Shown: one piece after another, positions 21,951 to 46,821 of the stretch
Layout of the letters: every line of letters begins with the position of its first letter
Position numbering within the stretch: the first letter of the stretch is position 1
Assembly: GCA_025617745.1 (NCBI GenBank)
Contig: CM046863.1
Coordinates: 1,860,001-1,924,000 of the forward strand
From: Heliocidaris erythrogramma
Taxonomy: Eukaryota > Echinodermata > Echinoidea > Camarodonta > Echinometridae
Direction of reading: 5' to 3'
Length of the DNA: 64,000 nucleotides
Notes under the pieces: model-generated
Databases searched by the model: none
The model's input: the letters and a program-made list of their open reading frames with translations, nothing else
Told to the model about the DNA's origin: nothing
Position numbers and translations under genes: made by a program

Positions 21951-22267
21951 TCACATTTATTTTGACATGTAGACTTCTGGTTGTCTCCCGATTGTTTTTA
22001 TCCTCTCCACCTGTTGAACTCTATATTTTTAAGTGCTTTTTAAAAGTTCTTTTTTTTTTAATTATTGTTTTCCCTACACTTGTGGAATATCACCGTTGAT
22101 GTATGGTCTTTTGTGTGTTTTTCTTTTCATCATGTTTTCTCTTCTGTTTCCTTATTTCGCATGTTTCTTTTTCCATTTCAATTTCCTAGCTTTTCTCTAC
22201 CTTTTCTGTACTTTCCTACGTTTCTCCTGTTATTTCTCTTATTTCCGTCTACTTATATTGCATCCTG

Positions 22268-25799: not shown

Positions 25800-25851
25800 A
25801 TGGAATTGAATTGAATAAATATGAATTGAATTGAATTGAAAAATTGAATTG
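25800..25851 (+). repeat. (TTGAA)n 3' tail of LINE A
   Basis: Repeats of GAATT/TTGAA with small interruptions run directly into the satellite sequence AATACCCCATATTG. This is the microsatellite tail that marks the 3' end of the LINE. Confidence 0.85.
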
Positions 25852-28663
25852 AATACCCCATATTGTGCGAGCACTACACTGTAAAAAATAACTGTAGATT
25901 AACAGGGTTTTTTTTTTTTAATTGCTAATTTTCCTGCCATTTCACAAGAAAAATACCGTATTAACACAAAAACAACCAAAACTTGTAATTTTACAAGTCA
26001 AAAAACCTGTTAATCTACAGTTACAAGTCAAAAAACCTGTTAATGTACAGTTATTTTTTACAGTGTACCAATTTAATCAAGGTCAGATAGATGAATCAAT
26101 CAGTTATGTTATCTGTGACAATATCAAAGATATAGATTCAAATAGTAAAAAAAATTGTTTGAAATTAAATAATTATTAAAAAGAAACCCATTGCAAGAAT
26201 GGTCATATTTCATTAAGCATATCAAAAAGCCTGGATTCAATTCAGTTAAATACTTACCGCCTGAACAATGCAGATGAAGAGAAGGAGTAAAGACATCGAA
26301 AGCACTATTAGCATAAAGTGTGTCGATTTCTCTTCTTTCTTGAGTTTTACCCTTTAAGATTTGTCAACTTTATACCTAGTTTACTTTTATATTACTGATT
26401 TTATTACCAGTTGAAGTGTTATATTTTTTCTATGAGATAAAAAGTTAGTTTCCTCATTTTTTCAAAGAATATTCCATATTGTGATAGTACTACCAATTTA
26501 ATGAAGGTGAGATAGATGAATCAATCAGTTATGTAATCTATGACAACATCAAAGATAAAGATTCAAATTGTAAAAAACCTGTTAAAAATTATATAATCAT
26601 TGAAAAGAAACCATTGTGAGAATGGTCATATCTTATTCCGCATATCAAACAGCCAGGATTCCATTTCGTTGAATACTTACCCACTGTACAACGTATATCA
26701 AAAGAAAAAGTCAAGAGATCAAGAGCAATGTTAACATTCAGTATGTCAATTTCTCTTCTTCCTCGAGTTTTACCCATAAGGTTTGTCATTTTTATACGTA
26801 GTTTTGTTTTATTTCAATGATTTTATTACTAGTTGAAATGTTATATGTTTTCTATGGGATAAAAAAGTTACTTTCATCATTTTCTCAAAGAATACCCCAT
26901 ATTGTGAGAGCATTACCAATTTAATCAAGGTCAGATAGATGAATCAATCAGTTATGTGATCTGTGACAGTATCAACGATATAGATTCAAATTGTACTAAA
27001 AGTTATCTGACATGAAATAGTGACTGAAAAGAAAATCATTGTAAGAATGGTCATATTTCATTAAGCATATCAAATAGCCAGGATTCCATTCCGTTGAATA
27101 CTTACCCACTGCACAACGTATATCAAGAGAAGAAGTAAAGAGATCAAGACCCAATATTAACATTCAGTATGTCGATTTCTCTTCTTCTTCGAGTTTTACC
27201 CATAAGGTTTGTCATTTTTATACGTAGTTTTGTTTTATTTCAATGATTTTATTACTAGTTGAAATGTTATATGTTGTCTATGGGATAAAAAAAGTTAGTT
27301 TCATCATTTTCTCAAAGAATACCCCATATTGTGAGAGCACTACCAATTTAATCAAGGTCAGATAGATGAATCAGTCAGTTATGTAATCTATGACAATATC
27401 AAAGATATAGATTCAAATTGTAAAAAACCTGTTAAAAATTATATAATCATTGAAAAGAAACCATTGTGAGAATGGTCATATCTTATTCCGCATATCAAAC
27501 AGCCAGGATTCCATTCCGTTGAATACTTACCCACTGTACAACGTATATCAAAAGAAAAAGTAAAGAGGTCGAGAGCAATATTAACATTCAGTATGTAAAT
27601 TTCTCTTCTTCTTCGAGTTTTACCCATAAGCTTTGTCAACTGTATACGTACATTTTTTTTTTTATTTTAATGATTTTATTACTAGTTGAAATTTTATGTT
27701 TTTTATGAGATAAAAAAGTCAGTTTCATCATTTTTGCAAAGAATACCCCATGTTGTGGGAGCACTACCAATTTAATCAAGGTCAGCTATATGAATCAGTC
27801 AGTTATGTAATCTGTGACAATATCAACGATAAAGATTCAAATTGTAATAAAGTTGTTTGAAATTATATAATCATTGAAAGGAAACCATTGTGACAGTATA
27901 AAAACAATTGATTCACATTGTAAAAAAAAAATTGAAATAATATAATTATTGAAAAGAAAACCATTGCAAGAATTGTCATATTTCATTAAGCATATCAAAA
28001 AGCCTGGATTCAATTCAGTTAAATACTTGCCACCTGAACAACGTATATCAAGAGAAGAAGTAAAGAGATCAAGACCCAATATTAATATTCAGTATGTCGA
28101 TTTCTCTTCTTCTTCGAGTTTTACCCATAAGGTTTGTCATTTTTATACGTAGTTTTGTTTTATTTCAATGATTTTATTACTAGTTGAAATGTTATATGTT
28201 GTCTATGGGATAAAAAGTTAGTTTCATCATTTTCTCAAAGAATACCCCATATTGTGAGAGCACTACCAATTTAATCAAGGTCAGTTATGTAATCTGTGAC
28301 AATACCAAAGATACAGATTAAAATTGTAATTCCACGAATACCCCATATTTTGAGAGCACTACCGATTTAATCACGGTCAGATAGATGAATCAATCATTTA
28401 TGTAATCTGTGACAATATCAACGATAAAGATTAAAATTGTAATAAAGTTGTTTGAAATTATATAATCATTGAAAGGAAACCATTGTAAGATTAGTCATAT
28501 TTAATTTAGCATTTCGAATAGCCATGATTCCATTCCGTTGAATACTTACGTTCTGTACATCGTAGATCAAGAGAAAAAAGTAAAGAGATCAAGAGCAATA
28601 ATGTCAATTTCTCTTCGTCCTCGAGTTTTACCCATAAGATTTGTCAACGTTATACGTAGTTTT
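25852..28663. repeat. Satellite array segment 4
   Basis: 420-bp satellite units interrupted only by the MITE at 25877-26065. The pair at about 26560-26800 and 27410-27640 is much closer to each other than to neighbours, another block-duplication sign. The array stops at 28663 at the duplicated target ATACGTAGTTTT (28652-28663). Confidence 0.9.
25877..26065. mobile_element. 189-bp MITE with TA target duplication
   Basis: Inverted ends CACTGTAAAAAATAACTG and its reverse complement, continuing inward through a shared AACAGG motif. It sits inside a satellite unit: GAGCACTA before and TACCAATTT after, where the intact unit reads GAGCACTACCAATTT, so TA (25875-25876 and 26066-26067) was duplicated. 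It has an internal direct repeat, ACAAGTCAAAAAACCTGTTA, in two copies. TA targets and this terminal sequence suggest a non-autonomous Tc1/mariner-like element. Confidence 0.9.
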
Positions 28664-28803
28664 TAAATATCATAATTGATAGGATTGAAGTAAATTGAAT
28701 ATATCATAATAAAGAAAGTAAATGTGAGAAAATTACCAAAATTATACAAGTTATAAATGAAGTATAATTAAAATTCTATTAATAATAAGAAGTACAAGTC
28801 GAA

Positions 28804-28929
28804 GAGGTTAGCATATCCCAGGTGTTCAGGCAGTGGAATCACAGAAAGAATTTCAAAGTAATTTAAAATTCAAATGAGGCATCGAGCCCCGATCACTGTA
28901 AAAGGACCCGCTTTTCGTGCGGTATTCAT
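28804..28929. repeat. DIRS left inverted terminal repeat
   Basis: 126 bp from GAGGTTAGCATATC to CGTGCGGTATTCAT, matching the reverse complement of 43613-43738 with few differences. The outer extension 28736-28803 is unique to this end apart from its copy in the internal complementary region. Confidence 0.9.
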
Positions 28930-29059
28930 TGTTCAAAGTAGATAGCAGGATTGAAAGAAGGAAGAACAAAAATAAATGCTTGTCATCTTCTGTGCTGTAT
29001 ACTATAAAAGGGAGGGAAAACGGAAGGAAAATTATTCCCGATTGTCAAAAAGGGTGGGA

Positions 29060-29172
29060 CCTCTTCGACTTGTACTTCTTATTATTAATAGAATTCTAAT
29101 TATACTTCATTCATAACTTGTATAATTTGGTAATTCTATTACATAACACTCATACAAGTCTTCAGAGGTAAG
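29060..29172. repeat. DIRS internal complementary region
   Basis: The first half (29060-29130, CCTCTTCGACTTGTACTTC onward) is the reverse complement of the extreme left end (28736-28811). The second half (29131-29172, TAATTCTATTACATAACAC onward) equals the minus-strand sequence of the extreme right end (43731-43772). The two ends are thus joined head to tail in a short internal copy, which is the arrangement used in the DIRS model as template for completing and circularising the DNA copy. Confidence 0.88.
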
Positions 29173-29710
29173 CATCTTCAAAGCAATCACGCACAGAAGA
29201 TGGCATATATTTTACGAAAATGAAAATCACATATTGAAACACAATTCGTTTACTTCTTGGAGTTTATTTCACGTAGTCTTCAATATCTATGTGAAAACAC
29301 GATAAACTGATTTTGTTGATTACATCATGCATTTAAGAGACCGACTTTAAAAAGGTCAAACGTTGACAATTAGATGTCAAACATAGACATGAAACGTTAT
29401 AAACTGAATCTTAAAATAAATTATCAATTTTTTTCTCCTTTCAATTCCTTTCTTCCTTACTTATTCCTTTTCAAAAGCAAATACAAATAAGTAGTAAACA
29501 GAACTTATAAAGGAACGAAATCACATTCACTCTGAAAAATATTTCCTTGCGATTGTTTTCGCATAAAAAACAGGAGAAAGCATGTCTATCATCATACAAA
29601 ATAGACATCATACAAAGAAACCCTTCGTTTAAAAAATCTTTGATAAACAGCAAACTCCTTACATCCAAAGACGCTCGTTAGTATAATAAAGTCTACACAA
29701 TCATGATAAT

Positions 29711-30977
29711 CTAGCTGTTTGATGCACTGTTCAGAATCATAACACCAAATGAATTTCTAGTATCTGGGAATTTTAGATCAAATTCTGCAAATGTCCTAGC
29801 ATTAGACCAATCGGCTGTCTTCACAATCTCGTTTAGGGTAACACCTTGAGGAAAAGCTAATGATGTCGATGCACTACGGAAACTATGAGCAGAAAAAACG
29901 TTCGTATCTATGCCAGATGCGGACAGGGTGGCTTTCATCCACCTTGCCAAGGTACATGTAGTGACGGATTTATGCGACTTTCTTGAGGAGATGAAAAGCT
30001 TGTTTTCATTACTTTCTTCCCTAAGAGGTTCACTACGTTTGATGTATTCCTTGAGAGTAGATATAACACAAAGTTTAGGATTAGCGGGGTACGCTGGTAA
30101 TTTTACAACTTGCTTGTTGATAACCTTTTGGGGTGTTGAAGTCTTAAGTAGATCTTTGACATGAAAAACTGCAAAGCTCTCAGACATCTGCATTGAACTA
30201 ATATCTAGATGCATAAGAGTCTGCGTCGGCTGGGCAGAAACGAGAGCCGTTAAGGCTAGTAACTTTTGACTCAAACTAAGTAAGGACAAGTTCACATTTT
30301 CTGGGAGTGAAAAAAGATAATCTAACACATTAGATACATTCCAGGAATAATTATACTTTGGCTTAGGGGAGTCTTTATTATATACCCCTTTTAACAGACG
30401 AACAACTAGAGGATGTTTCCCAACAGGAAAACCATCGATCGCCGTTAAAATAGACGAAAGTGCAGTGGGGTGTTGAAGTCTTAAGTAGATCTTTGACATG
30501 AAAAACTGCAAAGCTCTCAGACATCTGCATTGAACTAATATCTAGATACATAAGAGTCTGCGTCGGCTGGGCAGAAACGAGAGCCGTTAAGGCTAGTAAC
30601 TTTTGACTCAAACTAAGTAAGGACAAGTTCACAGTTTCTGGGAGTGAAAAAAGATAATCTAACACATTAGATACATTCCAGGAATAATTATACTTTGGCT
30701 TAGGGGAGTCTTTATTATATACCCCTTTTAACAGACGAACAACTAGAGGATGTTTCCCAACAGGAAAACCATCGATCGCCGTTAAAATAGACGAAAGTGC
30801 AGAACGATAAGAGTTAAGGGTTGAATATGTTTTCCCTAAAGAATGTTGATGCGCAAGGAAATTAACAAAGCTATCTATAGACGGGTTGTACATATTAGTC
30901 GACCGTTCACTACACCAATTACACCATGTCTGCCATGCAGATTCATATTGTTTGTTTGTTCCTGACCACCAAGACAT
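29711..30977 (-). pseudogene. DIRS tyrosine recombinase region (fossil)
   Basis: Minus-strand coding remnant of a tyrosine recombinase, the enzyme that integrates the circular DNA copy in DIRS elements. The N-terminal part has a core-binding-type segment (W-x-x-W-C-x-W-C, then SFVNFLAHQH and LNSYRSALS). The C-terminal catalytic part has the LLALTALVSAQ segment and ends with AHSFRSASTSLAF, which holds the conserved H-x-x-R box. The region also contains an internal tandem repeat. A MITE lies directly against its 5' end. It is broken. Confidence 0.85.
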
Positions 30978-30979
30978 TA

Positions 30980-31283
30980 AGCCAGTTCGGGGTTAGCGCA
31001 TCGTACTGAGATTGTACGAATGACCCCAAATATCCACAGATATTTTAGACATGGAGGGTCCCTTTATGTGCACTTCAGAAAAATAACTCTGGGAGTGATA
31101 GAGGTGCCTCATGAATAGCTTTTGTTTCCCCCTTTAAAAAGAATACTTCCACCTGGATATCATGGAATGCACCATTAGTGCATAATTGAATAATGATTAC
31201 ATGACATTAGTGTCAGTGGGTTTTAGAATTTGGTACAGATGACCTTTATCTGCTCATGCTCAGATTGCATCCCCGAAGTGGCT
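30980..31283. mobile_element. TA-flanked MITE, copy 1 (inside the DIRS element)
   Basis: 304 bp with inverted ends AGCCAGTTCGGGG and AGCCACTTCGGGG (right end read inward), flanked by TA (30978-30979 and 31284-31285). The interior is the reverse complement of the copy at 44125-44449, with only small differences. No ORF. TA target suggests a Tc1/mariner-type helper. Confidence 0.88.
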
Positions 31284-31667
31284 TATTCAGTGAGCTCGGC
31301 AGCTTGTTTCGAAATTCCTGTTGAATTCCAGTGTTGGCGGAGATAAGCCAGCACTATGAACATGACGAACAAAGAAGCGGACAATTTATGCTGCTCCTTA
31401 TTGTACCCTTCACAATTGCACTGGTTAACACAAGAACATCCATTCATTGCTATTCTGTAAAATATGTAGAACAGGTGTCACATTTTTTTATTTTTTATTT
31501 TTTGTTTAACGCCCCATCAGCACCTTATTGGGCTATATCGAGGCAAAATACGTATATTTGATTATGAGAGTGATACTTTGTGCTTAAATATTGTGAAGTT
31601 ACATTGCAATATGAATAAAAATACACTATACCACAGTAAATAAGTAAAAAATCTACAACATGAAAGA

Positions 31668-32661
31668 CTATATGCTATAAAAGATACCAGATCTTTTCAA
31701 GAATTCTAAAATGTTTGGTATATTGACAGAAGTAAAAAGCTGCCTCATTGAGGTAGCAAGGTGATAACATTTTCTGATGTCAGCAAAATCTTTGCATTCC
31801 AACAGAATGTGCTTAATTGTTAGAGGGCAGTGGCAGCTACTACATACTGCTGCTGGTTCACTGCACAGTAAAAAAACTATGTGTAATTCGAGCGTGTCCA
31901 ATAATACATCGAGTAAGGACAACTTGGTCATGACGTGACAATGTGCATGTGGGCAGACATTCACTCAAAACTGGTTTAATTGCATAGAACTTGTTATTTA
32001 TACATTCATCCCATTCATTCTGCCAAAGATTAAGGATGTACGATTTAATAATTGGTTTCAAGTCTGAAGAAGGGATGAAAAGTTGCGTTGCTTGTTGGTT
32101 ACGAGCAGTGTGAGCAGAGGCATCTGCTTTTTCATTGCCATCAATGCCTACATGCCCAGGGGTCCAACAAAAGACAATTTCTTTTTCGTTAGAGAGCGTG
32201 AAATACTTTGTAATGATGTACTCAACGAGAGGATGGTCAACCAGCTTATTATGTATAGCTTGTAAAGCTGAAATCGAGTCGGAACATATTAGAAATTGCT
32301 TATAGTCGCAATATTCAATAGATTCTAAAGCTAGAATAATGGCTGTGAGCTCAGCTGAATATATGGAAAAAACATCTGGAAGACGAGCACTCTTGGAGTG
32401 CATCTGACTTGAAATGACCGCGCAAGCAACTCTGTTCTCATCCTTCGAGCCGTCTGTATATAAGTATCTGTATTCAGAGAAATCATTTTTAATAAAATTA
32501 AAAAGTTGTTGGTATTTAATTGGGTTAGTAGATGACTTTGGATATTGGTTTAAATCAAATACTACTGTTGGAGCCTGAAAGATCCAAGGTGGTGGGCTTA
32601 GAGATTCCTTGTGAGCTATATTAGTGATATCAATATTTGAGGCCTCAATGTGAGGTTTCAT
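31668..32661 (-). pseudogene. Nimb-type ORF2: RNase H and C-terminal cysteine region
   Basis: Separated from the reverse transcriptase by LINE B. The RNase H domain shows its four acidic residues in place: YTDGS, SAELTAI, CSDSISALQ and GNEKADASAH. A tail with HILLEC and a preceding C-x-x-C segment follows after one frame change near 31865. RNase H removes the RNA strand after reverse transcription; its presence is diagnostic for the I group. The frame extends upstream of 32661 as far as the LINE B junction. Confidence 0.88.
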
Positions 32662-32709
32662 TCTCAGACCAAGAGGACGTATTGTTTTTGGTCGTGAATT
32701 GTAGTGACG

Positions 32710-35700
32710 TATTTATTTATTTATTTATTTATTTCTGAATGGTTCATCATATTACATAGTACATTGAAATAACTCCTTGGAGCGGTCACATCCATAAGAG
32801 AGGATATTTAAAGAAACAAATAACAATGACAGAATCGTAAAATAACTATGGTCACAACACAGACATAGAATAATGGAGCACCATACAGAGGTATGGCAAT
32901 ATAAGCTTAAAGGCTTGAAACGTTGCCATACCTTCACATTCAAAACTAACGAATTACATATATTATCATTCAAAACTAAAACTAAAACAAAATAAACAGA
33001 AAAAACAAAAACAAAGAGAGAAACTCAATAACCAATGTTAACATTAAATGAACTAATTTGAAATTGTACACTATTTACAACAGATAAAGATGAAAATAAA
33101 GTTATAGATGGTATGAAGATGGAGAAAGAGGAGGGAGCCTTTATTATCCCAAATAATATATGTAATCAGTAATATAGTAAAGGCGTCGATGGATATCTAT
33201 ACACGTAATAGGACAAATTATGTAGGATGAAAATATTCTAGTCTTTCGGGTGATATGAACCTCTAGGCTTCGTTGTAGTAATACAAGAAATAATTGTACA
33301 TGTATATGTATTAATCACATCTTAGAGATAAGCATGCGCTTAATCGCATTTTTAAAGGAATGAATGGTAGGTAAATTTCGAGTGTCACTCGGTAAGGCAT
33401 TCCAGACATCTGGACCGTTATGCCTAACAGATTTATGAGCCAATAATGTGCGGGGGTTGAATAAGTGAATATTAGCCGATTGTCTTGTGGGGTAAGAGTG
33501 AATATCACTGTTTCGACTGAACATGGAAGAAAAGGAAGTGGGCAAAAGGTTGTTATTATAACGAAACATAAAGAGGGCGGTTTGAAGAAAATTGATGTCA
33601 CTAACCGTAAGGCTCTTCAACTTGATAAAGAGAGGCCTTGTATGGTCACGGTAACCAGCTCCAGCACAAATGCGGATATCTTTCTTTTGTAGCAAGAGAA
33701 TATTATCTGTAACACACTTAGATGTTGCCCAAAGAACATTGCAGTATGAGATGTATGGTAGAATCAGAGTATTGTACAGTATAACAATTACTTTGTCAGG
33801 AACTATATATTTCACTCTATATAATATTCCAATATTTCGGGAAATTGTTGTTCTTATGTTTTTCAAATGATCATTCCAGTTTAGTTGTTCATTAATGTAA
33901 ACACCGAGAAATTTGGTACAAGTTTTTTCTTTCCAACAAGACATCATCTAGTTTTACTTTAGGAGTTTGTACTCCACGAGACTTTCTACCTTTAAAGTGA
34001 ATATAATTCGTTTTTTGCACATTGAGAGACAGCATATTGCTCCTAAACCAATTGGTTAATTTGGGTAGTTCATTATTAATTGTATTTTCAAGGATACTGA
34101 TATTATTATGAGATAAGAAAACACTTGTGTCATCTGCAATTAATATGTAATTTAGAGTGGTAGACACATTGCAAATATCATTGACATATATCAAAAATAA
34201 CAAGGGGCCTAATATTGAACCTTGCGGAACACCGCATTTTAGAAATGACACAGCAGAGTTGACAGAGTTGTAGGATGTGTATTGCCTTCTGTTAGAAAGG
34301 TAGCTAGAGAACCACTCCAGAGCAATGCCTCTGACTCCATAATGTTGTAGTTTACATAGCAGAATTGAGTGGTCAAGTGTGTCAAAAGCCTTGCTCAGAT
34401 CCATGAACACACCAATAACATGCTCACGAGCGGCCAGGGCACTAGACACATGGTCATAAAATTGCAACAATGCAAGGTCAGTTGAGTGAGACCTTCTAAA
34501 TCCATACTGGTTAGGGTTAAGAAGTTTATGTTTCTCAAGATAGCTAAAAAGTCTATTATACACGATTCTCTCAAGTATTTTTGAGAAACTTGATAATATT
34601 GAGATTGGCCTATAGTTAGCGATGTTTGAGGGGCTTTTTTATGCACAGGAATAACCTTTGCCAGTTTGAATGAAGAAGGAAATACACCACTTGATAAAGA
34701 TATATTACAGATGTGTACAAGAGGTGTTAAAATCGAACCTATGATCTGCTTCAAGAATGAGGAACTAATTCCATCATGACCAAGGGATTTACTATTTTTT
34801 AAAGAACACACAACATTAAGTACTTCAAGATAATCAGTTGGCTTGAGGAAAATAGAGGATTGAGACTGCCCTGGCAGATATTGCTTAAAATTTGTTCCTG
34901 CTGTATTTATTTTCTTTGCTTGATTTGGGCCCAAGTTGGTAAAGTATTCATTGAACACATTAGCAATATCTCCTGCAGAAGTTATCTCACGATTCTCATA
35001 TACAAAATTTTGGGTGTTTTCAGTCTTATTTCTTTTACACAAAATATCTTTAACAACTTTCCATGTAGATGACATATTTCCTCTTGTCTTATCAAATTGC
35101 CTAGTGTAAAATGTACTGCGCGATGATCTTATTATCGACGTTAATTTATTTCGGTATTTTTTATATTTCTCGATATTCTCTCGAGTTGGTTTCCTCAAAC
35201 TTCTTTTGTATAGGGTATTTCTTCTTTTGATAGACTGTAGTATCCCCCTGGTAATCCAGGGATGTTTACCAAAGCTCTTATTATTTGATTGAATGAGAGG
35301 GATATTCTTATCAAAATAATCATAGAATTTACTCCAGAACAGTTCAAAAGACTTATCAACATCTTCACATACCAACACTTCGGACCATTCTTCAGCCAGG
35401 CAATCGTTGTTTAGATTGGAAATATTATCCTCTGTCAAGATTCGTCTCTCTATAATCCCCTTTTCCTTACGGCCATTAATTAGTAGATCACGAATCATGC
35501 AGAACACAGGTAGATGATCAGAAACTTCACAATAGAACAAACCAGATTGTGAATGACTTTTAACAGTTTTTACAAAAATATTATCTAACAGCGTCGAAGA
35601 TCCATTACATATTCTCGACGGTTTATCAATCATTACACTGGAGGCATTGGAATCAAGTATATTATGGAGACGGCGAGTACTAGCATTTTTCTTTAGTAAA

Positions 35701-36160
35701 TCTATGTTGAAGTCACCCATTACACATGAAGATATATTCGACGAATTAATAGCTAACATCAACAACTCAAGATCAGTAAAGAAACTGTCAACATCTGAGT
35801 TTAGTGGTCTGTATACTACACACACAATGAAATTTTTCTCTGCTGGGAGGTCAACCTCGATACATAAAAGCTCTGCACTTTGACTGGGGAAGGAAAGATC
35901 ATGCCTGATTTTGAATGATAAATTATCTGAAATATACATGAGAACGCCACCACCACGTCCATTTGGCCTATCCTTGCGGACTAGATTGTATCCTTCTAAG
36001 GTAAAAAGCGGTGGAGAAAGAGCATTTAACCATGTTTCAGATAAACCAATTATTGAGCAATTGAAATTCAATGAAGACAATAGAGCATTTATTTTTTCAT
36101 AATTTTTAGAGAGACTCCTGGCATTGCAGTGCCAATAAAGGAGGGAATAAATACGCATTC
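32710..36160 (-). mobile_element. CR1/L2-like LINE, 5'-truncated, inserted in the Nimb-type LINE (LINE B)
   Basis: A minus-strand LINE of about 3.45 kb with an (AAAT)n tail (about 32711-32733, TATT repeats on the plus strand). It begins at about the start of the endonuclease, so ORF1 is missing. Both its junctions are in Nimb ORF2, whose frame resumes on each side, and the host sequence meets around GCGT, so any target duplication is only a few bases. It is a different family from LINE A but of the same clade. The stretch 32734-33314 is its 3' untranslated region; a second, shorter copy of the same 3' part lies at 55184-55990. Confidence 0.88.
33315..36158 (-). pseudogene. LINE B ORF2 (endonuclease-reverse transcriptase)
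   Basis: 36158-34395 encodes the endonuclease (HCNARSLSKN, SETW, GRGGGVLMYIS, MGDFNIDLL, SDHLPVF) and the first part of the reverse transcriptase (KVIPVHKK). A frame change near 34610 leads to 34563-33892, with NQYGFRRSHSTDLA, MDLSKAFDTLDH, GVPQGSILGPLLF and the catalytic box in the form LIADDTS, where FADD is usual. A further frame change near 33930 leads to 33947-33315, with TKFLGVYINEQLNW and the C-terminal W-N-A-L-P segment. Only about two or three breaks are visible, so this copy is younger than LINE A, which fits its position as the innermost insertion. Confidence 0.88.
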
Positions 36161-36343
36161 GTAGGCTGGGTTAGATGGAGAAGCAGCTAATTTAACTACG
36201 TATTGCATAGAAAGCTTTATGCGACGTAAGCTGAGTGATGGTTCTTTAGTAATAGCATAGAGACTTTCAACAGGTGAAGTTCTGAAAGCACAAAGGCTAA
36301 GGCGTAATCCCTGATGATGGATTGTGTCAAGGCATTTTATATA

Positions 36344-38108
36344 TCAACGTCTTGCAGAGCCATAAATAATGCAACCATAATCCAACTTGGAACGAATAAT
36401 AGAACGGTAAAGTCTCAACAGTACCGTGGTATCACCACCCCAACTAAGTCTTGATACCACCTTAAGAAGGTTTAGTGAATTCAAACATTTAGCTTTCAGG
36501 TTCTTTATGTGAGGTATGAAGGTTAACTTTTTATCTAGAACTAGTCCTAGAAACTTTGTCTGTTCTACTACCTTAATAGGTGTATTGTCAATTGACAGAT
36601 TTGGATCAGGATGTTGAGAGCGAAGATTACAAAAATGCATACACACAGTCTTGGACTTTGAAAATTTAAAACCGTTCTTTTGGGTCCATTGATTGATGTT
36701 ATTTAAATTCATTTGCAATTGTCGTTCAATGGTAGCCATGAATTTAGACCTAAATGCTATCAAAAAATCATCAACATATAGAGAGCACATAATATTTTTA
36801 TCTAAGGAGTTTATTATGTTGTTAATTTTTATGTTAAAACATGTAGGTGACAGAACGCTGCCTTGTGGGACTCCCATTTCCTGATTATGAAGATCTGACA
36901 AGGTGGATCCCACTCGTACCTGAAATTGACGGTTTTCCAGGAAGCGCGATATGAAAGTGGGAAGTCTACCACGAAGACCAAAATCAAAAAGGTTTTTCAT
37001 GATACCGAACTTCCAGGTGGTGTCAAAGGCCTTTTCTAAATAAAAAAAATACTACGACTACATGTTGTCTGTTTAAGAAAGAATCTCTTATGTATGACTC
37101 GAGCCGAACTAGGTGATCTACAGTGCTTCTGTGGTGTCTGAAGCCACATTGATAATTTGAAATTAAATTATTTCATTCTAAGAACCAAACGAGCCGATTG
37201 TTGACCAGACGCTCCATAGTCTTACATAGACAGCTTGTCAGAGCTATCGGTCGATAATTTATAGGATCACTGTGATCTTTCCCTGGTTTGGGAATAGGAA
37301 CAACTGTTCCCCGCCTCCAAATAGGTGGAAAAGCACCAGAATCCCATGTTATGTTGATTAGTTTAAGGAGGACTTTAAGACATGAATGAGGTAGGTGTTT
37401 TAAAAATTGATAGTGTATGGAATCTGGACCAGCAGATGAGTCGCGGCTTTTCTGTATTGCTGTGTTTAATTCTTCTATGGTGAATAAAGCGTTATAATAT
37501 TCAGTGTTATTAGACTTAAATTTTAGCTGCTCTTTTTCTGCATGAGATTTATGGTGTTGGAAGGTAGGAGCATAATTCTGTGAGGATGAATTTAGAGAAA
37601 ACTGATCGGCCAGTTTATTTGCAATATCTTTATGGGAAGTAATTATTGTATTATCAACAGAGAGATGCTGAATATGTGATGAAGTATTCTTTCCCTGGAT
37701 TTTCTTCACCATATTCCACACTTTAGAGGCAGGGGTACGAGAGTTCAACTTGGAGACATAAGATCTCCAAGTGCTACGTTTCTTTTGACGAATTATACGT
37801 CGTGTTTTAGCTCGAACCTGTCGAAAATTGTCGTGATTTGAAGGGGTGGGATGAGCATCAAATAGCCGAAGGGCTCTTTTTCGTTTATTAATGGCTTCTT
37901 TGACCTCATCATCATACCAGGGTCGAGAAACTCGTTGGGGGATAGTGGAAGTTTTGGGAATTGACTCTTCCGCTATAGATACAAGGTCCTCCGTAAATGC
38001 ATCTATTGGGCATTGAAGTCCCTCATATCGTTCAATAGTAATTTTTTGGGAACATAGTAGGGAGTATGTTTGCCAGTCTGCTTTGTGAAATTTCCATTTA
38101 GTAGACAC
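36344..38108 (-). pseudogene. Nimb-type ORF2: reverse transcriptase part
   Basis: 37173-38108 encodes the linker and fingers (RPWYDDEV, then RRGTVVPIPKPGKD and NYRPIALTSC). It ends at an in-frame TGA near 37171, after which the frame stays open into a QCGFR box. A further frame change near 37050 precedes the palm part (36344-37000), which has GVPQGSVLSP and the catalytic YVDDFLIAF (YVDD box intact), then TKFLGLVLD and the thumb. One more break near 36344 precedes about 170 bp of further coding similarity up to the LINE B junction. Confidence 0.88.
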
Positions 38109-38194
38109 TGGTTGAATGGTAGGACCGTCACGTGATATGAAAAGTGGAAAATGATCACTCCCATGACAGTCTGTACTGACAAACCATGAATAGT

Positions 38195-38859
38195 CTAGAA
38201 CAAGTCAGGATCACAAATGGAGATGTCTATGGCTGAGTAAGTACCATGTCCTGGATGTAAGTAAGTGTGATTACCGTTATTTAAAATGCATAAGTCATGG
38301 GAACTAATAAATTCTTCCAATATTCGACCCTTACTGGTTCTGTGAGAGCTTCCCCACATGGGGTTATGACCATTAAAGTCGCCTAAAATCATACATGGAG
38401 AAGGGAGCTGACTGAATAAATTATCTAGCTCGCGAATGTTTAGATTATACGGTGGAGGAATATAAATACTACATATCGTTATTGTTTTATGCAGGGTAAG
38501 TCGTACAGCTACAGCTTGAAGCGGTGTATCTAGTTTTAAATGTGTATGTATAATATTATTTTTAATTAAAATCATTGACCCGCCAGCAGCTCTGTCGTTA
38601 GTGACACTGCCATATGTATTATACATGTTAAACCGTCTCAGCTCTACAGCATCGGATGATTTTAATAGGGTTTCCTGCAAGCAATACACACTGGGATTAT
38701 GTTCGAGCATCATGAGACCGAGCTCATCGTAATTAGCTCGGAAACCTCGACAGTTCCATTGGATTATTTTATGCTTACTAGAAGCCTTCGTTGTATGTGT
38801 TACCTTTTTGTGTTAGTGAGCTTTGATTGGGGTCGGACATCTGAAGCACTAAACTCCAT
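38195..38859 (-). pseudogene. Nimb-type ORF2: endonuclease part
   Basis: A likely ORF2 start is the minus-strand ATG at 38859 (MEFSASD), 18 bp after the ORF1 stop. A frame change in an A run near 38808 leads into KIIQWNCRGF, the typical start of an I-group APE endonuclease. It continues with VYCLQET (catalytic Glu), AAGGSMILI, CSIYIPPPY, MILGDFNGHNP and the D-I-S-I segment. The final S-D-H motif (HGSDHFPLF) appears just beyond 38195 in another frame. The endonuclease nicks target DNA for target-primed reverse transcription. At least two frame changes make it non-functional. Confidence 0.85.
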
Positions 38860-38876
38860 GTCTTCCCCCTCAGCTG

Positions 38877-40106
38877 CTAATACATCATACTTGTTATGTA
38901 TTTGTATGGGGTCAGTGGACCCCTTTTTTGTCTATTCGACATCGTTTGAATTTTGTCTTTTGTTGGTTTAGTTTTATCTTTTGTTGGTTTTTTGAGCGGC
39001 TCGTCAATGGAGGTACGAGGAACTGGTTTTCCCGGAGGATCTCTAGAAAGACTACGGCTGCGGGCAGATGTCAAGTCTGCCTTATTTCTAGCAGACCGCG
39101 TCTCTTTCACTTGATCCAATTTCTCCACCGACTGAGTACTTGTCTGCCTGTGGGTAATTGTCTTTGGTTGCTTCTTAATAGGTATGGGAGTGTCGCATCC
39201 AATCGGCCACGTCAAGTCTGTTTGTACAGCCATAGACACTTTTGGTACATGTATATTCTGTTTAACAGCATGTGCATAACCTGTAAATACATTTTGTGCC
39301 TGATACCTTTTCCTAGCTTCCATATAGGACAGATTACCAACGGCTTTAATTTTTTGAATGTCTTTTTCTTCGATCCATTTGGGGCACGTCTTTGCATTGG
39401 AATGATGGTTACCATTGCAATTTACGCAGGAAGGTGTGCCCTTGCAGTCTGTAATACCGTGATCCTTCTTTCCGCATCTCTCACAAGTTTCGTCCCCAGT
39501 ACAATTTGATTTGAAATGACCAAACCGCTGGCATCTAAAGCAGCGTATAGGATTGGGTATATAACGATCAACCCTAACTTGCAGAAAACCAACTTTAATG
39601 GTTGGCGGCAAAACTGGCGTGTTGAAAGTCAAAAAGAAGGTACCAGTTGATTGTTTAACACCGTCGCGTGTGATCTCCACACGGTGAATACGAGTAACAT
39701 TTTGGGTGGCTAAACCATCCAGAATCTCCTCGTCCTCACAGTGCTTTAGATCAGGGCAACGGATGACGCCTTTACTAGAGTTCAAAGACCTGTGAGGGGT
39801 TACCTGAATAGGAATCTGTAGAAATGTTGTCAATTTTAGAAACATGTTTGCCTGGCTGGCCTTATCCACTTCAACCAAGACTTCTCCTGACCGGAGTCTC
39901 TTAGTCGACTTGGTCGTGCCAGCCATGCCGTTTATTCCTTTGTCGATCGCAAATGGCGACAACTTCTTAAAAGCATCTTGGTCTTTGCCCGAAATGACCA
40001 AGAAACGCGGCCAGCAAGGTGTAGACACTGTCGACTCAAAATCTGAACCCGAGTCTATGGTATTCCTCGATCGCTTATTGTTTGGTTTAGTTTGTAAGTT
40101 ATCCAT
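38877..40106 (-). CDS. Nimb-type ORF1 (CCHC zinc-knuckle nucleic-acid-binding protein)
   Basis: Intact 409-residue frame. Residues about 30-185 hold the tandem RRM-like region usual in I-group ORF1 proteins (PRFLVISGKD, then LVEVDKASQAN and GVIRCPDL). Three zinc knuckles follow at about 188-245: CFRCQRFGHFKSNC, CERCGKKDHGITDC and CVNCNGNHHSNAKTC. The C-terminus is basic and rich in Ser/Thr/Lys. Such proteins coat the LINE RNA in the cytoplasm and carry it to the nucleus. ORF1 remains open although ORF2 is broken many times. The ATG at 40106 is preceded by a leader of about 540 bp. Confidence 0.9.
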   Translation of the reverse strand: MDNLQTKPNNKRSRNTIDSGSDFESTVSTPCWPRFLVISGKDQDAFKKLSPFAIDKGINGMAGTTKSTKRLRSGEVLVEVDKASQANMFLKLTTFLQIPIQVTPHRSLNSSKGVIRCPDLKHCEDEEILDGLATQNVTRIHRVEITRDGVKQSTGTFFLTFNTPVLPPTIKVGFLQVRVDRYIPNPIRCFRCQRFGHFKSNCTGDETCERCGKKDHGITDCKGTPSCVNCNGNHHSNAKTCPKWIEEKDIQKIKAVGNLSYMEARKRYQAQNVFTGYAHAVKQNIHVPKVSMAVQTDLTWPIGCDTPIPIKKQPKTITHRQTSTQSVEKLDQVKETRSARNKADLTSARSRSLSRDPPGKPVPRTSIDEPLKKPTKDKTKPTKDKIQTMSNRQKRGPLTPYKYITSMMY

Positions 40107-40650
40107 GAGTTATTGATTGTTATTCGTCATCAGTGCTCCCCACCCACCGTGGAGCCCAACAAGGGGACATAAAATGTATGCGGTCAGCCACCATACTTAT
40201 GTCAGAGATACACCGGTGATATACTCAGAATATACGTACACCTATATACATGTACATCTATATACATATACCCCAATTGACCTGTTAAGCAGCCGCCTTC
40301 TAGGAGCCCAAGAGTGAAGACTATTAGTAAAAATACACTGTACATTCTTATAGAAAAAGGCAAATAAAGTACATGCAATTAGTACAAATATGGGCTCCCA
40401 GGCCATGTCACTACCAGCCGATTGATTGAAACCAGGCCAATTTCAACCTCCCGTCTAGGTGAATCCAGGGCCAAAGTGATGTGTTGCTTTAGGAGGACTG
40501 CAATCACACCATCCACTCAATCACCAGGATCCCTTTCTCCACAGACACGGGTCGCAGCTCACGGCAAACAAGCCGCACTTTCAGTCGCCTTTTACGACAT
40601 GCAGTAGGATACAGTGGGCCTATTCTAATCCCCCGGACCCACAGGGGGAA
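40107..40650 (-). other. 5' leader of the Nimb-type LINE
   Basis: Non-coding leader that starts with a G-rich segment (CCCTGTGGGTCC on the minus strand) and contains a purine-rich stretch around GCATGTCGTAAAAGGCG. Internal promoters lie in such leaders in this LINE group. No ORF is credible. Confidence 0.6.
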
Positions 40651-41066
40651 ACAGGTGTCACATAATAGCAGTGAAGGGATGTCCTTTTGTTTACTAGAGC
40701 TATTGTGTTCATAGTGCAGGCGGCTAGTTGAAGTTTGGGCATGTGTTGAGGGTGGGGTATGATGAGACTGTCCTCTGGAAGCAGAATGGGGGGGGGGGGG
40801 TGCAACTAGGAGGTCGAGGAGTAATGGAAACCAGACTTGCGCTTTCCATACAGGTGCAATCAGGATTGCCAATTGTGTATTGTCCATTCTCACCTTGTTG
40901 AGAACCCTGCATAGAAGGCAAAAGGGGGGAAACATGTAAGGAAATAAATTTTCCCATGACAAAGAGAAAACATCGATAGCTATTGCCTCCGAGTCTTGTT
41001 TCCATGAAACGTATTGGGTAGCTGATTATTGAATCTTGATGCAAACAAATCTACTTCTGGCATAAG

Positions 41067-42400
41067 TTAAAATCTGTCTAATAATGATTTGAAAACAAAA
41101 GGAGAAAGGGACAATTCTTTATTAACGTCCCTACGGGATAGTGCATCAGCAGTACAATTATCGGTACCAGATATATGAGATGCAGAAAGCCAATTGTTTG
41201 ATTCAAAACACCAAAACCAAATTTGTGCGGAAATAGAATTTAAACTTGGTACACTCCCGCCTAAATTATTGACATAGGAGACGGCAGTACTATTATCTGA
41301 TTTAACATGAATGTGTTGGTTCACACATGTGCCACACAGGGAAAGCAGTGCATTCTGTACTGCGAGCAATTCTAACCCGTTGATATGCAAATCATGATGC
41401 TTTGGGGGCCAAGTGCCTTGCATGAATGAATCATCTTCATGTGAAAATGCACCCCATCCCGATTTACTCGCATCGGTAGATATTGTTATGCTAATAGGAG
41501 GAGGCTGGATAGAAGATCGAAATTCCTCCGGTGCTTTAGAAAGCCACCACTGAATTTCTGCGCGAACACATGGTTCTGTTTTCGCAAACGAAACAATTAA
41601 GCCAATAAACTTTGCGAGATCGCTAATTTTGATTTCTTGGCTACTAAGAATCGCTTTTCTAAGCGACTGAAAATTCTCTATTTTTTCAATTGGCACACTG
41701 ACCGTCATCTTCATTGAATTGACGATAAAACCGAGAAAGGTGATGGTAGTTTGGGGCATCAAACTTGATTTGGCATAATTAATGGTAAAGCCTAATGATT
41801 CTAACAAATTATGACGTGTTATCTAAACTTTCCTGTCTAGAACGAGCAAAAATTAAAAAGTCATCTAAATAAATCATTGCTCGTATGCCTCTTTCTCGAA
41901 CTGAGGCAATGACGGGTTTCATAGTTTGGGTGAATACCCGAGGAGCTGAGCTCAATCCAAAAGGAAGACATTAAAAACAGAAAAACTTTTCGTCCCATGA
42001 GAAAGAAAGGTAGCCGTGATGGCTAGGATCAATAGGGACGGAAAAATATGCGTCTTTAAGATCAATCGTAGTTAGAAAATCATTAGATTTTAAATTAAAT
42101 CTTTGACCAATTTGAAATGTTCGTATATCACGAATATATTCAAGTTTTTCAAATTGATTATCGGTCTCAGACCTCCAGATTTCTTAGAAATATTGTCGAC
42201 AAATACATGCAATTTCTCTGATAGCTTGTTTTGTGAGAAGATCGGCAATTTCTTTGTCGATTGTGACTTTTTCCTCCTGAGTAAATGAAATATTACTCGG
42301 ATGATAAAATTGGAAAGGAGCAGATAAGAAATCTATTTTGTAACCCGAAAATGGATTTTAGGATCCATGGGTCGGAAGTGATCTGAGACCAGGCATCTTT
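41067..42400 (-). pseudogene. DIRS reverse transcriptase-RNase H region (fossil)
   Basis: Minus-strand coding remnant. The RNase H part (41067-41807) shows ISTDASKSGWGAFS, a HINGLELLAVQNAL segment with the catalytic Glu, VKSDNSTAVSYVN and a C-terminal ADALSR box. This is the pattern of DIRS and Ngaro RNase H rather than of LTR-element RNase H. A YLDD-type reverse transcriptase active site is recognisable upstream at about 41860. The region is broken. Confidence 0.85.
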
Positions 42401-42413
42401 GAAAAACTTAAGT

Positions 42414-43262
42414 CTACCCGCAATAATTGGGGTACTCACTACTTTTTTGCCTGTCCATGGTTGGAAAAGCTCCGACGATACTGAGCCGCTGGAAAGCGTG
42501 GGGTGATGGCGGTGGTCGAGTCACCGTTGCTGGATCTCGAGAGCGGCTCCACCGGGACGATCGTTGTCCCTTGAAGTCACGACGATGCCGAGTGGAAAAC
42601 TCGGCTTGCTTCCTCTGGGTGTGGCGACGTGGGGCCTTCCCATGATGCGACACTTTTTGCCCCACATTGTACGCTTCAGCCACATTCTTGAGGGCACTTT
42701 GTATGTCTTTCCCAAACAACTTCTCATCCAAGGGGGTACTTCGGCTACACAAACCCTTGTATTTGGGGTTGACATAAGGCTTCATTTCCGCCCTCCGATA
42801 CATGCTTAACTCATAAGAAGCATGCCCGCTTAACGTGAGCCCGTCAAGGGAAAACTCCTTAATGCGTTCAGTGTTGACTGGCCTTTTCTCAGACGTAGCT
42901 GCGTGTAATTCTTCAAAAATTTCCCCGTAGGGAAGAAGACCCTGCACAACATTGTTTTGCAGTTTCTGGATGCGAGCATCGATAGTGCGAGCTCTACCCG
43001 AAATAGTTTGCCAAACCTCCGGCACAACACGTGGCGTACAAGCTTCAGGGGCATTGCTGGGAGTAAGATAACGCGATGAAATCTTCTCCAAACTCTCTTT
43101 CTTAGGCGGAAGAGTAACCAATTTCGTAAGCCTTTCGGCCAACTTATCGAATTTGGTAGGGGCAACATTGATGCCAGTGTCATATAAATCTGCATCTTCT
43201 TTGATGTCAAACTCATTGGGCTCCAAATCGACGTCTGGGTCGTAGTGGGAGACTGGGGTCAC
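42414..43262 (-). pseudogene. DIRS gag-like ORF (fossil)
   Basis: An open minus-strand frame of 282 residues in the gag position of a DIRS element, upstream of the reverse transcriptase. It is acidic near its start, has a central helical-looking part (RARTIDARIQKLQ) and ends in an Arg/Ser-rich tail, as expected of a nucleic-acid-binding structural protein. The assignment rests mainly on position, since this ORF is poorly conserved across the family. Confidence 0.65.
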
Positions 43263-43612
43263 TGTAGATCAAGCCTCTGATATAACATCCAGCTCGCTGG
43301 CCCCCGCAAGGAGGCTTAGGAGGTCATCGTCACCCCGAGGGGGTTGCTGCTGCACAGCGTGCCGAGCACGTCTGTCGAAACGCTCACAAGGAGCTGAACC
43401 TTCACGGTCCATATACCGAGACAACGTCTCAGTAAGCCGCTTAATGTCAGCAGCCTGAGAAGTCAGGCGTTGGTTAACATCCTACCCTACGGGGAGGAGC
43501 GGCTCTGGTCGCTCCGGCTGGGCTTCGTTGGCCATGGAGATGAGATATATACTGGAATCTCTACTTGTAGACTGGTATAGAACTAACGTCACTGCCTGCA
43601 CACAAAGAAAAG

Positions 43613-43738
43613 ATGAATACCGCACGAAAAGCGGGTCCTTTTATAGTGATCGGGGCTCGATGCCTCATTTGAATTGTAAATTACTTTGACATTCTTTGTG
43701 TGATTCCACTTCCTGAACACCTGAGATATGCTAACCTC
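43613..43738. repeat. DIRS right inverted terminal repeat
   Basis: Reverse complement of 28804-28929. Its outer extension to 43772 is copied in the internal complementary region. Confidence 0.9.
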
Positions 43739-43775
43739 TGAAGACGTGTACGAGTGTTATGAAATAGAATTACAA

Positions 43776-43847
43776 TGCCCCGAGTGGGATTCGTACCCGG
43801 GACCCTGGATTACATGACCAGTGCTCTACCAACTGAGCTATCCGGGC
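43776..43847 (-). pseudogene. tRNA-Thr(UGU)-like unit, copy A
   Basis: 72 nt, transcribed leftward. The acceptor 5' strand is GCCCGGA, the A box is TAGCTCAGTTGGTAGAG and the anticodon stem-loop is CTGGT-CATGTAA-TCCAG. Animal tRNA-Thr(UGU) has CTGGT-CTTGTAA-ACCAG here, so the unit derives from tRNA-Thr. U33 is replaced by A and the stem has a T-T pair, and the B box in this copy reads GGTACGAATCC with a change in the invariant TTC. It is therefore a tRNA-derived repeat, not a working tRNA. Confidence 0.8.
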
Positions 43848-44124
43848 TCCCGTCGAAGCAAAGTAACAATCTCACATATAGCCCCTCTCTTTCCATCGAG
43901 CGTAGGGGGTACATCCATACCAATTCCATGCGTACGCTATATAATGGCCTACCAATGAGACAGGTCTTCCCTCTAAAGTCGGGAAATCCATGCCAACGAA
44001 TTTCTATAGAGGACAATTTAAATTCGTAATTAAATATCATAATTGATAGGATTGAAGTAAATTGAATATATCATAAAGAAAGTAAATGTGAGAAAATTAC
44101 AATGCCTACCAATGCCTACCAATA

Positions 44125-44449
44125 AGCCACTTCGGGGATGCAATCTGAGCATGAGCAGATAAAGGTCATCTGTACCAAATTTAAAACCCACTGACACTAA
44201 TATTCGATAATGTGCTCATGAATGTCATGTAAACATTATTCAATTATGCACTAATGGTGCATTCCATGATATCCAGGTGGAAGTATTCTTTTTAAAGGGG
44301 GAAACAAAAGCTATTCATGAGGCACCTCTATCACTCCCAGAGTTATTTTTCTGAAGTGCACATAAAGGGACCCTCCATGTCTAAAATATCTGTGGATATT
44401 TGGGGTCATTTATACAATCTCAGTACCATGCGCTAACCCCGAACTGGCT
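44125..44449. mobile_element. TA-flanked MITE, copy 2 (inside the tRNA foldback element)
   Basis: 325 bp, opposite orientation to the copy at 30980-31283, with ends AGCCACTTCGGGG and AGCCAGTTCGGGG flanked by TA (44123-44124 and 44450-44451). The compact foldback copy at 46199-46821 lacks it at the matching place (about 46600) and so shows the empty site. Confidence 0.88.
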
Positions 44450-44541
44450 TATTAGCCATTATATAGCGTACGCATGGAATTGGTAAGGATTGGTAAGAGA
44501 AGTGCTATATGTGAGATGATTGTTACTTTGCTTCGACGGGA

Positions 44542-44613
44542 GCCCGGATAGCTCAGTTGGTAGAGCACTGGTCATGTAATCCAGGGTCCCGGGTTCGAAT
44601 CCCGCCCGGGGCA
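44542..44613 (+). pseudogene. tRNA-Thr(UGU)-like unit, copy B
   Basis: 72 nt, transcribed rightward, toward the end of the foldback element. A box TAGCTCAGTTGGTAGAG and B box GGTTCGAATCC are both intact, so RNA polymerase III transcription is plausible. The loop CATGTAA keeps anticodon TGT but has A at position 33. The acceptor stem (GCCCGGA with CCGGGGC) has two mismatches. No terminator-like T run of four or more follows within the first few bases; TTTTC comes at about 44620. Confidence 0.8.
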
Positions 44614-44653
44614 TTGTAATTTTCTCACGTTTACTTTCTTTATGATATATTCA

Positions 44654-46198
44654 ATACGTAGTTTTCTTTTATTTTAATGATGTTATTACTAGGTGAAATG
44701 TTATATGTTTTCTATGAGATAAAAAAATGTTAGTGTGATCATTTTCTCAAAGAATACCCCATAACGTGAGACCACTGCCAATTTAATCAAGGTCAGATAA
44801 ATGAATCAATCAGTTATGTAATCTGTGACAATATCAAAAAAATAGACTCACATTGTAAAAAAAATTGAAATTATATAATTATTGAAAAGAAAACCATTGC
44901 AAGAATTGTCATATTTCATTAAGCATATAAAAAGCTTGGATTCAAATCAATTAAATACTTACCGCCTGAACAACGTAGATCAAGATAAGGAGTAAAAAGA
45001 TCGACAGCACTATAAGCATAAAATATGTCGATTTCTCTTCTTTCTCCAGTTTTACCCTTTAAGATTTGTCAACTTTATACACAGTTTTCTTTTATTTTCA
45101 TGATTTTATTACTAGTTGAAATGTTATATGTTTTCAATGAGATAAAAAAGTTAGTTTCATCATTTTCTCAAAGAATACCCCATATTGTGAGAGCACTACC
45201 AATTTAATCAAGGTCAGATAAATGAATCAGTTATGTAATCTGTGACAATGTAACAAAAATAGATTCACATTGTAAAAAAGTTTTTTGAAATTATATAATC
45301 ATTGAAAGGAAACCATTGTAAGAATAGTCATATTTCATTCAGCATTTCAAATAACCAGGATTCCATTCCGTTGATTACTTACGTTCTGTACAACGTAGAT
45401 CAAGAGAAAGAGTAAAGACATCAAGAGCAATATTCACTTTCAGTATGTCAATTGTGACCCGACGCCTCAAAACCTACAATAAGTTGCCAAAATATTTTTT
45501 TTGGTTTTATACATTTTCTGAAAGTAGAGATTCTCAGCTTTCCAATTGTTAGAAATTATATAATTATTGAAAAGAATACCATTGCAAGAATTGTCATATT
45601 TCATTAAGCATATAAAAAGCTTGGATTCAATCCAATTAAATACTTACCGCCTGAACAACGTAGATCAAGATAAGGAGTAAAGAGATCGACAGCACTATTA
45701 GCATTAAATATGTCGATTTCTCTTCTTTCTCCAGTTCTTACCCTTTAAGATTTGTCAAGTTTATACATAGTTTTCTTTTATTTTAATGATTTTCTTGCTA
45801 GTTGAAATGTTATATGTTTTCTAAAGTTAGTTTCATCATTTTTTCAAAGAATATCCCATATTGTGAGAGCACTACCAATTTAATGAAGGTCAGATAGATG
45901 AATCAAATAGTTATGTAATCCTTGGCAATTTCAAAGATATAGATGCAAATTGTAAAAAAAGATGTTTGATATGAAATAATGATTGAAAAGGAAACCATTG
46001 TAAGAAAAGTCACATTTCATTCAGGATTTCAAATAGCCAGGATTCCATTCCGTCATGTCCGTAGAATACTTACGTTCTGTACAACGTAAATCAAGAGAAA
46101 GAGTAAAGAGATCAAGAGCAACATTCACATTCAGTATGTCAATTTCTCTTCTTCCTCGAGTTTTACCCATAAGATTTGTCAACTTTATACGTAGTTTT
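44654..46198. repeat. Satellite array segment 5
   Basis: Three to four 420-bp units between the two tRNA foldback copies. At 45454 the satellite switches to about 95 bp of unrelated sequence (GTGACCCGACGCCTC onward) and resumes near GAAATTATATAATTATTG at about 45552, with part of a unit missing. Confidence 0.88.
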
Positions 46199-46270
46199 TA
46201 AATATTATAATTGATAGGATTGAAGTAAATTGAATATATCATAAAGAAATTAAATGTGAGAAAATTACAA

Positions 46271-46342
46271 TGCCCCGAGCGGGTTTCGAACCCGGGACCC
46301 TGGATTACATGACCAGTGCTCTACCAACTGAGCTATCCGGGC
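46271..46342 (-). pseudogene. tRNA-Thr(UGU)-like unit, copy C
   Basis: 72 nt, leftward. A box and B box (GGTTCGAAACC) are intact; loop CATGTAA as in copy B. The acceptor stem has one G-G mismatch (GCCCGGA with TCGGGGC). It is closest to a foldable tRNA of the four copies, but A33 and the T-T pair argue against decoding. Confidence 0.78.
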
Positions 46343-46706
46343 TCCCGTCGAAGCAAACTAACAATCTCACATATAGCCCCTCTCTTTCCATCGAGCGTAG
46401 GGGTACATCCATACCAATTCCATGCGTACGCTATATAATGGCCTACTTAATGAGACAGGTCTTCCCTCTAAAGTCGGGCAAAACCATGCCAACGAATTTG
46501 AATTCGTAATTAAATATCATAATTGATAGGATTGAAGTAAATTGAATATATCATAAAGAAAGTAAATGTGAGAAAATTACAATGCCTACCAATGCCTACC
46601 AATGAGCCATTATATAGCGTACGCATGGAATTGGTATGGATGTACCCCCTACGCTCCATGGAAAGAGAGGTGCTATATGTGAGATTGTTACTTTGCTTCG
46701 ACGGGA

Positions 46707-46776
46707 GCCCGGATAGCTCAGTTGGTAGAGCACTGGTCATGTAATCCAGGGTCCCGGTTCGAATCCCGCTCGGGCA
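46707..46776 (+). pseudogene. tRNA-Thr(UGU)-like unit, copy D
   Basis: 70 nt, rightward, two bases shorter than the others in the T-arm and 3' acceptor region. A box intact, B box GGTTCGAATCC, loop CATGTAA. Confidence 0.75.
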
Positions 46777-46821
46777 TTGTAATTGTCTCACATTTACTTT
46801 CTTTATGATATGATGTATTCA

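Follow-up and report, generated by a model that had tools for sequence, protein, structure and literature searches.

Structure and insertion order of the nested locus

A 64,000-bp window of the Heliocidaris erythrogramma genome (C11:1860001-1924000; contig CM046863.1 of a 1.064-Gb assembly with 26 contigs) contains a nest of six levels, in which a ~425-bp satellite holds a foldback element with tRNA-Thr genes (FB), which holds a DIRS-like retroelement, a miniature inverted-repeat transposable element (MITE-C), a long interspersed nuclear element (LINE) of the I/Nimb type and finally a second LINE (LINE B), each inside the one before. We put at about 0.9 the probability that this locus was built step by step, by ordinary mobile elements inserting one into another within the satellite. 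The nesting, its junctions, the empty sites of FB, DIRS and the later insertions, and a collinear second block on the same chromosome, at a distance of ~252 kb, were all observed directly. The window was examined by self-comparison, scans for tandem repeats (Tandem Repeats Finder, TRF), tRNAs (ARAGORN) and open reading frames (ORFs), and direct reading of the sequence. Beside the six levels, a further MITE (MITE-B) is present twice, and 337 bp of the recombinase gene of the DIRS-like element are duplicated in tandem. The original prediction for this DNA described five elements, all of which are present where it placed them, and its order of satellite, FB, DIRS, Nimb and LINE B is borne out by the nesting, the empty sites and a second block in which FB and DIRS occur alone; it had overlooked MITE-C, as well as the side insertions and the tandem duplication.

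The FB insert extends from 28664 to 44653. The sequence ATACGTAGTTTT either side of it is a native satellite motif, found at 16 places in the window, which stands in matching phase at the two edges, as expected of a 12-bp target duplication. Within FB, the DIRS-like element extends over ~28737-43768, starting after GAAAATTAC (28736) and ending before AATGCC (43769), and the second FB copy at 46199 reads GAAAATTACAATGCC uninterrupted where the first holds DIRS. The hexamer AATTAC is present at both DIRS ends and in the empty FB. A 6-bp target duplication was nevertheless not counted, because AATTAC prevails in other DIRS copies: it occupies 8 of the 11 other left ends printed and AATTCC the other 3, the end in the second block being read by position.

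At the next level inward the window reads AAGCCAG, CACTATGAACA, the Nimb-like LINE, TGTTCATAGTG and CAGGCGG in this order; the second block and other DIRS copies read GATAAGCCAGGCGGCTAG, or a close variant, at this position. With Nimb left out, MITE-C is 185 bp long, with ends CACTATGAACA/TGTTCATAGTG and CAG on either side, and 39 other matches at 97-98% identity were obtained with its left part of 131 bp (best 40 of 1235 candidates). It thus has the terminal inverted repeats, the short target duplication and the many near-identical copies of a MITE. Of the 13 other DIRS loci fetched, 4 stop short of its site and all 9 that reach it are empty there, the joined sequence being exact in 7; the Nimb site is empty in 5/5 fetched MITE-C copies, which read through uninterrupted. 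Since these copies are continuous across the Nimb point, Nimb lies in MITE-C and MITE-C in DIRS; direct insertion of Nimb into DIRS was rejected, with MITE-C standing between the two, and the levels therefore number six. The middle of MITE-C appears by eye to be shorter than in three of the fetched copies (L073-L075).

The Nimb-like LINE (31484-40649) is flanked by a duplication of 14 bp, rather than the 13 bp first described, which reads AACAGGTGTCACAT at 31470-31483 and 40650-40663. At its right junction, 31 of 39 other matches (best 40 of 455) stop at 40647-40656 and the other 8 start at 40717. Of 13 other Nimb loci, 10 are continuous across the LINE B site, the 7 printed reading GTGACGTATAAAGGAGGG; the remaining three comprise one with a deletion over the site (L052) and two not aligned on both sides (L050, L054). 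Chance nesting is excluded, because empty sites exist for LINE B, Nimb and MITE-C. The MITE-B site in DIRS is likewise empty in 8/9 other DIRS loci reaching it, the second block included, and the ninth (L063) has ~230 bp of other sequence there. The nearest other copies of MITE-B are 99% identical; one relative lies at C11:1626180, outside the collinear chain described below.

A second block, probably paralogous

A search with the FB copy at 46 kb led to C11:1642953, where the left flank is a DIRS end. This second block, C11:1628100-1645995, chains collinearly with window 16189-47403 (20 kb fetched; the chain is approximate within the satellite), and one further match at window 51500-52330 (93%) suggests that it extends to ~52.3 kb. 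It has the satellite, FB, DIRS and second FB with the junctions of the window, and is without both MITE-B copies, MITE-C, Nimb and LINE B; such collinearity elsewhere, with junctions in common, is what a segmental duplication leaves. Window and paralog differ at 171/4759 bases of DIRS (3.6%, four stretches) and at 32/473 of the right satellite flank (6.8%). Of the 42 matches listed for the satellite-FB-DIRS junction (best 40 of 297 candidates), two run across all of it, those in the window and the paralog; two more, one at each second FB, take in the satellite-FB part alone. For the DIRS/MITE-C/Nimb junction, the window is the one place among 40 matches (best 40 of 455 candidates) where the sequence runs across.

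Since FB and DIRS are present in both blocks, they would be older than the duplication, and the MITE copies, Nimb and LINE B were most likely inserted after it. Nested transposable elements (TEs), in which the order is read from interruption, are a known means of ordering insertions; different here is the second block with the earlier steps only, which serves as an independent check. TE nests in satellite DNA are ordinary in kind, and the FB family is the least ordinary part of this one. The nest and its half-built second copy provide a clean worked example of structural ordering of insertions, which has little significance outside this genome except if the family of tRNA-Thr arrays turns out to move whole tRNA genes. 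The DIRS element of the paralog is itself interrupted by a 1.5-kb repeat at 1639373-1640909 (L039 6373-7909), 903 bp of which are 95.6% similar to part of L067, with partial similarity to L012.

Divergence of the elements

Private substitutions of the window copy were counted relative to the fetched copies that resemble it most (7 other LINE B copies, 13 and 8 other Nimb copies, and 13 and 8 other DIRS loci, the last set including the paralog), and the counts are biased low because only such copies were used. They amount to 30/1420 in DIRS (2.1%, 95% confidence interval (CI) 1.4-3.0; stretches 20/909 and 10/511), 15/2640 in Nimb (0.57%, 95% CI 0.32-0.94; stretches 5/1650 and 10/990) and 10/2475 in LINE B (0.40%, 95% CI 0.19-0.74). 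Nimb differs from DIRS (p 2e-5) and not from LINE B (p 0.43), the latter being 98.6-99.3% identical to its 7 other copies. For MITE-C, a FastTree branch (131 columns, 6 rows; 0.20) was set aside and identities were used instead.

In the FB middle part 3/338 bases occur in none of the 20 dispersed copies compared (0.9%, 95% CI 0.2-2.6), the nearest of which is at 1.2%. This part alone would make FB younger than the DIRS element that it encloses, with a CI overlapping the DIRS range. Between window and paralog the whole FB differs at 33/614 bases (5.4%), more than the DIRS stretches compared above (p 0.03), and the middle part at 6/346; a patch in the right arm supplies much of the whole-FB difference. 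FB is not rankable by divergence, because it is too short and its ranges overlap those of DIRS. The clock supports DIRS being older than Nimb and LINE B, as had been anticipated, but is silent on the other two steps, so that the attempt to rank all elements failed for FB and for Nimb versus LINE B, and the proposed relative time scale for five families is not usable. The example shows how little copy divergence of short or young elements contributes to ordering.

Proposed course of events and alternatives

The nest most probably arose by a single FB insertion into one satellite unit with a 12-bp target duplication, after which FB and its flanks would have been copied by satellite turnover to give the copies at 28664 and 46199. 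A DIRS-like element would then have entered one FB by tyrosine-recombinase joining at the shared AATTAC, with no target duplication, and the entire block would have gained a duplicate on the same chromosome, at a distance of ~252 kb. In the window copy alone, two MITE-B copies and MITE-C would have inserted, the Nimb-type LINE would have entered MITE-C with a 14-bp duplication, LINE B, at whose ends no duplication was found, would have entered Nimb, and a 337-bp segment of the recombinase gene would have been duplicated in tandem. The enzymology of these steps is inferred, as is the status of the second block as a duplication rather than an allele.

The FB copies at 28664 and 46199 would most likely represent one insertion copied along with the satellite, since they share a satellite phase and have related flanks. 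The copying by satellite turnover is suggested by flank variants and one well-supported satellite clade: GATGTTATTACTAGGTGAAATG occurs in the satellite to the right of both window FB copies and nowhere else in the window, and a left-flank tree of 59 satellite units places the three alignable FB left flanks together in a single clade (support 0.97). The three local copies also group (0.84) in a tree made from 23 FB middle parts. Two independent insertions at one preferred site of the satellite unit would yield the shared phase and the shared 12-bp motif equally well; this is quite unlikely, being disfavoured by the common flank variants and the left-flank tree, and 28 of 30 fetched FB loci (22 distinct places; best 40 of 1384 candidates) have no match to this satellite, the remaining two both lying on C11. 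The copy at 46199-46821, originally used as an empty site to fix the order, does show FB without DIRS, but as a probable duplicate of the first FB it is not an independent fixer. Several observations weigh against the account preferred here. The right-flank tree (46 units) groups four FB flanks with two other units, the node carrying no support value; the left flank of the first FB in the paralog matches for ~35 bp only, after which the satellite differs, and it is not among the sequences of the left-flank tree; the GATGTTATTACTAGGTGAAATG common to both window flanks has one base changed in the paralog; and divergence neither ranks FB nor separates Nimb from LINE B. To these is added the fairly unlikely case that an unpurged haplotype takes the place of the duplication.

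In that case the block at C11:1.63-1.65 Mb would be the misplaced other haplotype, and Nimb, LINE B and the MITEs would be insertion polymorphisms. High heterozygosity is found in many invertebrates, and a collinear block on the same chromosome, ~252 kb off, would fit such a misplacement; against it, the differences in DIRS, the right satellite flank and window 51500-52330 are high for alleles, and there are large insertions in both blocks. An origin of the nest partly in chimeric joins between repeat copies during assembly is very unlikely indeed. The locus is repeat-rich, and the units of the 337-bp tandem duplication are 99.4% identical and not duplicated in the paralog, as an artefact might leave them, but these units have 2 differing bases, and exact target duplications with matching empty sites arise by insertion, not misassembly.

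Table 1 Features of the nest and its surroundings, in window coordinates
Feature	Position	Strand	Evidence or remark
~425-bp satellite, left flank	26066..28663	+	TRF period 425 at 26066-27893; satellite matches continue to 28663
FB left target duplication, 12 bp, ATACGTAGTTTT	28652..28663	+	Direct reading
FB left fragment	28664..28736	+	96% identity to 44030-44100 and 46510-46580; junction common to paralog
DIRS 3' part: terminal repeat, internal complementary region (~29059-29168), tyrosine-recombinase ORF	28737..31351	-	Pfam, inverted repeats
337-bp tandem duplication in recombinase gene	30129..30802	-	2 differing bases between copies; single in paralog
MITE-B in DIRS recombinase gene (AAGCCA..TGGCTT ends, ~3 bp duplicated)	30979..31284	-	Empty sites
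MITE-C left part, CACTATGAACA terminal repeats, CAG target duplication	31352..31483	+	Paralog and empty-site comparison
Nimb 3' part, RNase H	31484..32712	-	PF00075 E 8.6e-13; 14-bp duplication
LINE B: TATT-repeat tail at left end; endonuclease and reverse transcriptase (RT) in different frames	~32713..36134	-	PF03372, PF00078
Nimb 5' part: ORF1 (CCHC-like knuckles by eye), endonuclease, RT	36135..40649	-	PF14529, PF03372, PF00078
MITE-C right part	40664..40716	+	Paralog and empty-site comparison
DIRS 5' part with terminal repeat, two ORFs (RT/RNase H-like, gag-like by eye)	40717..43768	-	~95% identity to paralog
FB right part, two tRNA-Thr(TGT) genes, opposite orientation	43769..44653	+	ARAGORN 43776-43847, 44542-44613
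MITE-B in FB, not in paralog	44124..44450	+	Paralog comparison
FB right target duplication, ATACGTAGTTTT	44654..44665	+	Direct reading
Second FB copy without DIRS	46199..46821	+	Satellite phase as first FB; ATACGTAGTTTT left, ATACATAGTTTT right

Classification of the retroelements

The recombinase ORF of the DIRS-like element matches PF00589 (E 6.2e-6) at 26.5 bits, slightly under the curated cut-off of 27.1. Its terminal repeats are inverted (28772-28929 versus 43613-43771, 89%), and an internal complementary region is present (28722-28808 versus 29059-29144, inverted, 93%), with a sequence that reads like the two ends joined. According to the portion of the description available (PMC3266345), DIRS1-like elements recombine into a target with which they have a short sequence in common and leave no duplication, and the window element resembles them in its inverted terminal repeats, in an internal complementary region that matches the joined ends, in the recombinase ORF and in a short shared junction core without target duplication. 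It differs in that the RT/RNase H-like and gag-like ORFs (41067-41822 and 42414-43268) have no Pfam match at 0.001, and in being interrupted. The 337-bp duplication at 30129-30802 is a possible assembly stutter, yet its two units are distinguishable, and each differs from the paralog at 11/334 bases.

The Nimb-like LINE carries endonuclease (PF14529/PF03372), RT (PF00078) and RNase H (PF00075) domains, and its ORF1 has no Pfam match. These domains and the 14-bp target duplication resemble those of the I superfamily, to which the accessible part of PMC11203168 assigns Nimb; the clade name is that of the original prediction, the assignment being by domains only. LINE B is apparently 5'-truncated, and its ends share no direct repeat of at least 6 bp. 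It resembles CR1/L2 elements (Jockey superfamily) in its endonuclease and RT, its short tandem-repeat tail and the lack of a detected duplication, and is placed with them tentatively, by domains only. CR1/L2 elements are not known to make target duplications.

The FB family of tRNA-Thr arrays

The fetched FB loci each hold at least one unit of 324-328 bp, arranged head to tail where there are several, and an inverted partial unit closes a number of these loci. ARAGORN found at least one tRNA-Thr(TGT) in each of 20 dispersed loci, and in 5/20 (L019, L023, L024, L029 and L034) some copies read as tRNA-Ala(TGC). One of these (L024 1573-3296) has two Thr and then four Ala units in one array, a possible anticodon change within the repeat family. 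In 6/18 loci the array is flanked by repeats of 12-17 bp that differ at no more than 1 position, each length being matched by 1-6 of 100 random placements, and no flanking repeat of this length was found in the other 12/18; one locus was excluded from this count (L010, whose left side is DIRS), two share flanks and are not independent (L022 and L027), and some of the repeats are AT-rich. In addition, one tRNA array (L026) has a similar ~40-bp stretch on both sides, longer than a usual target duplication, and a long array of tRNA-Thr units at C7:36.21 Mb (L030, L031, L035-L038) switches orientation midway.

The FB family forms dispersed arrays, some with an inverted partial unit or 12-17 bp flanking repeats. 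A possible reading, which we consider rather unlikely, is that it spreads whole tRNA genes and that its members are retroposed multimers, made for example when a reverse transcriptase travels round a circular or multimeric template and snaps back at the end. If so, the family would multiply tRNA genes, let anticodons drift and seed arrays into other DNA, including satellite. The nearest published kind found is Helenus, a group of tRNA-bearing terminal-repeat retrotransposons in miniature (TRIMs), which, in the sections available of PMC10886601, have short repeats with tRNA sequence and, in one family (LTR-11_DR), tandem arrays. The same sections give 4-bp duplications for animal Helenus elements and consider a working tRNA unlikely; FB differs in having an ARAGORN-accepted tRNA, an inverted end, and flanking repeats of 12 bp at the window copy and 12-17 bp in 6/18 loci. 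The available part of a flat-oyster genome report (PMC9679248) describes many tRNA-Thr genes with no clustering. No publication title was found that describes such tRNA-Thr arrays, although one may exist.

Other features of the window

Another LINE lies inside the satellite at 20844-25850, with ORFs on the + strand and GAATT repeats at its right end; the satellite of the paralog is uninterrupted there. Oppositely oriented 15-bp tandem repeats stand ~1 kb apart at 47673-48991, and parts of this region match many places, often close together on opposite strands, perhaps as another foldback-like family.

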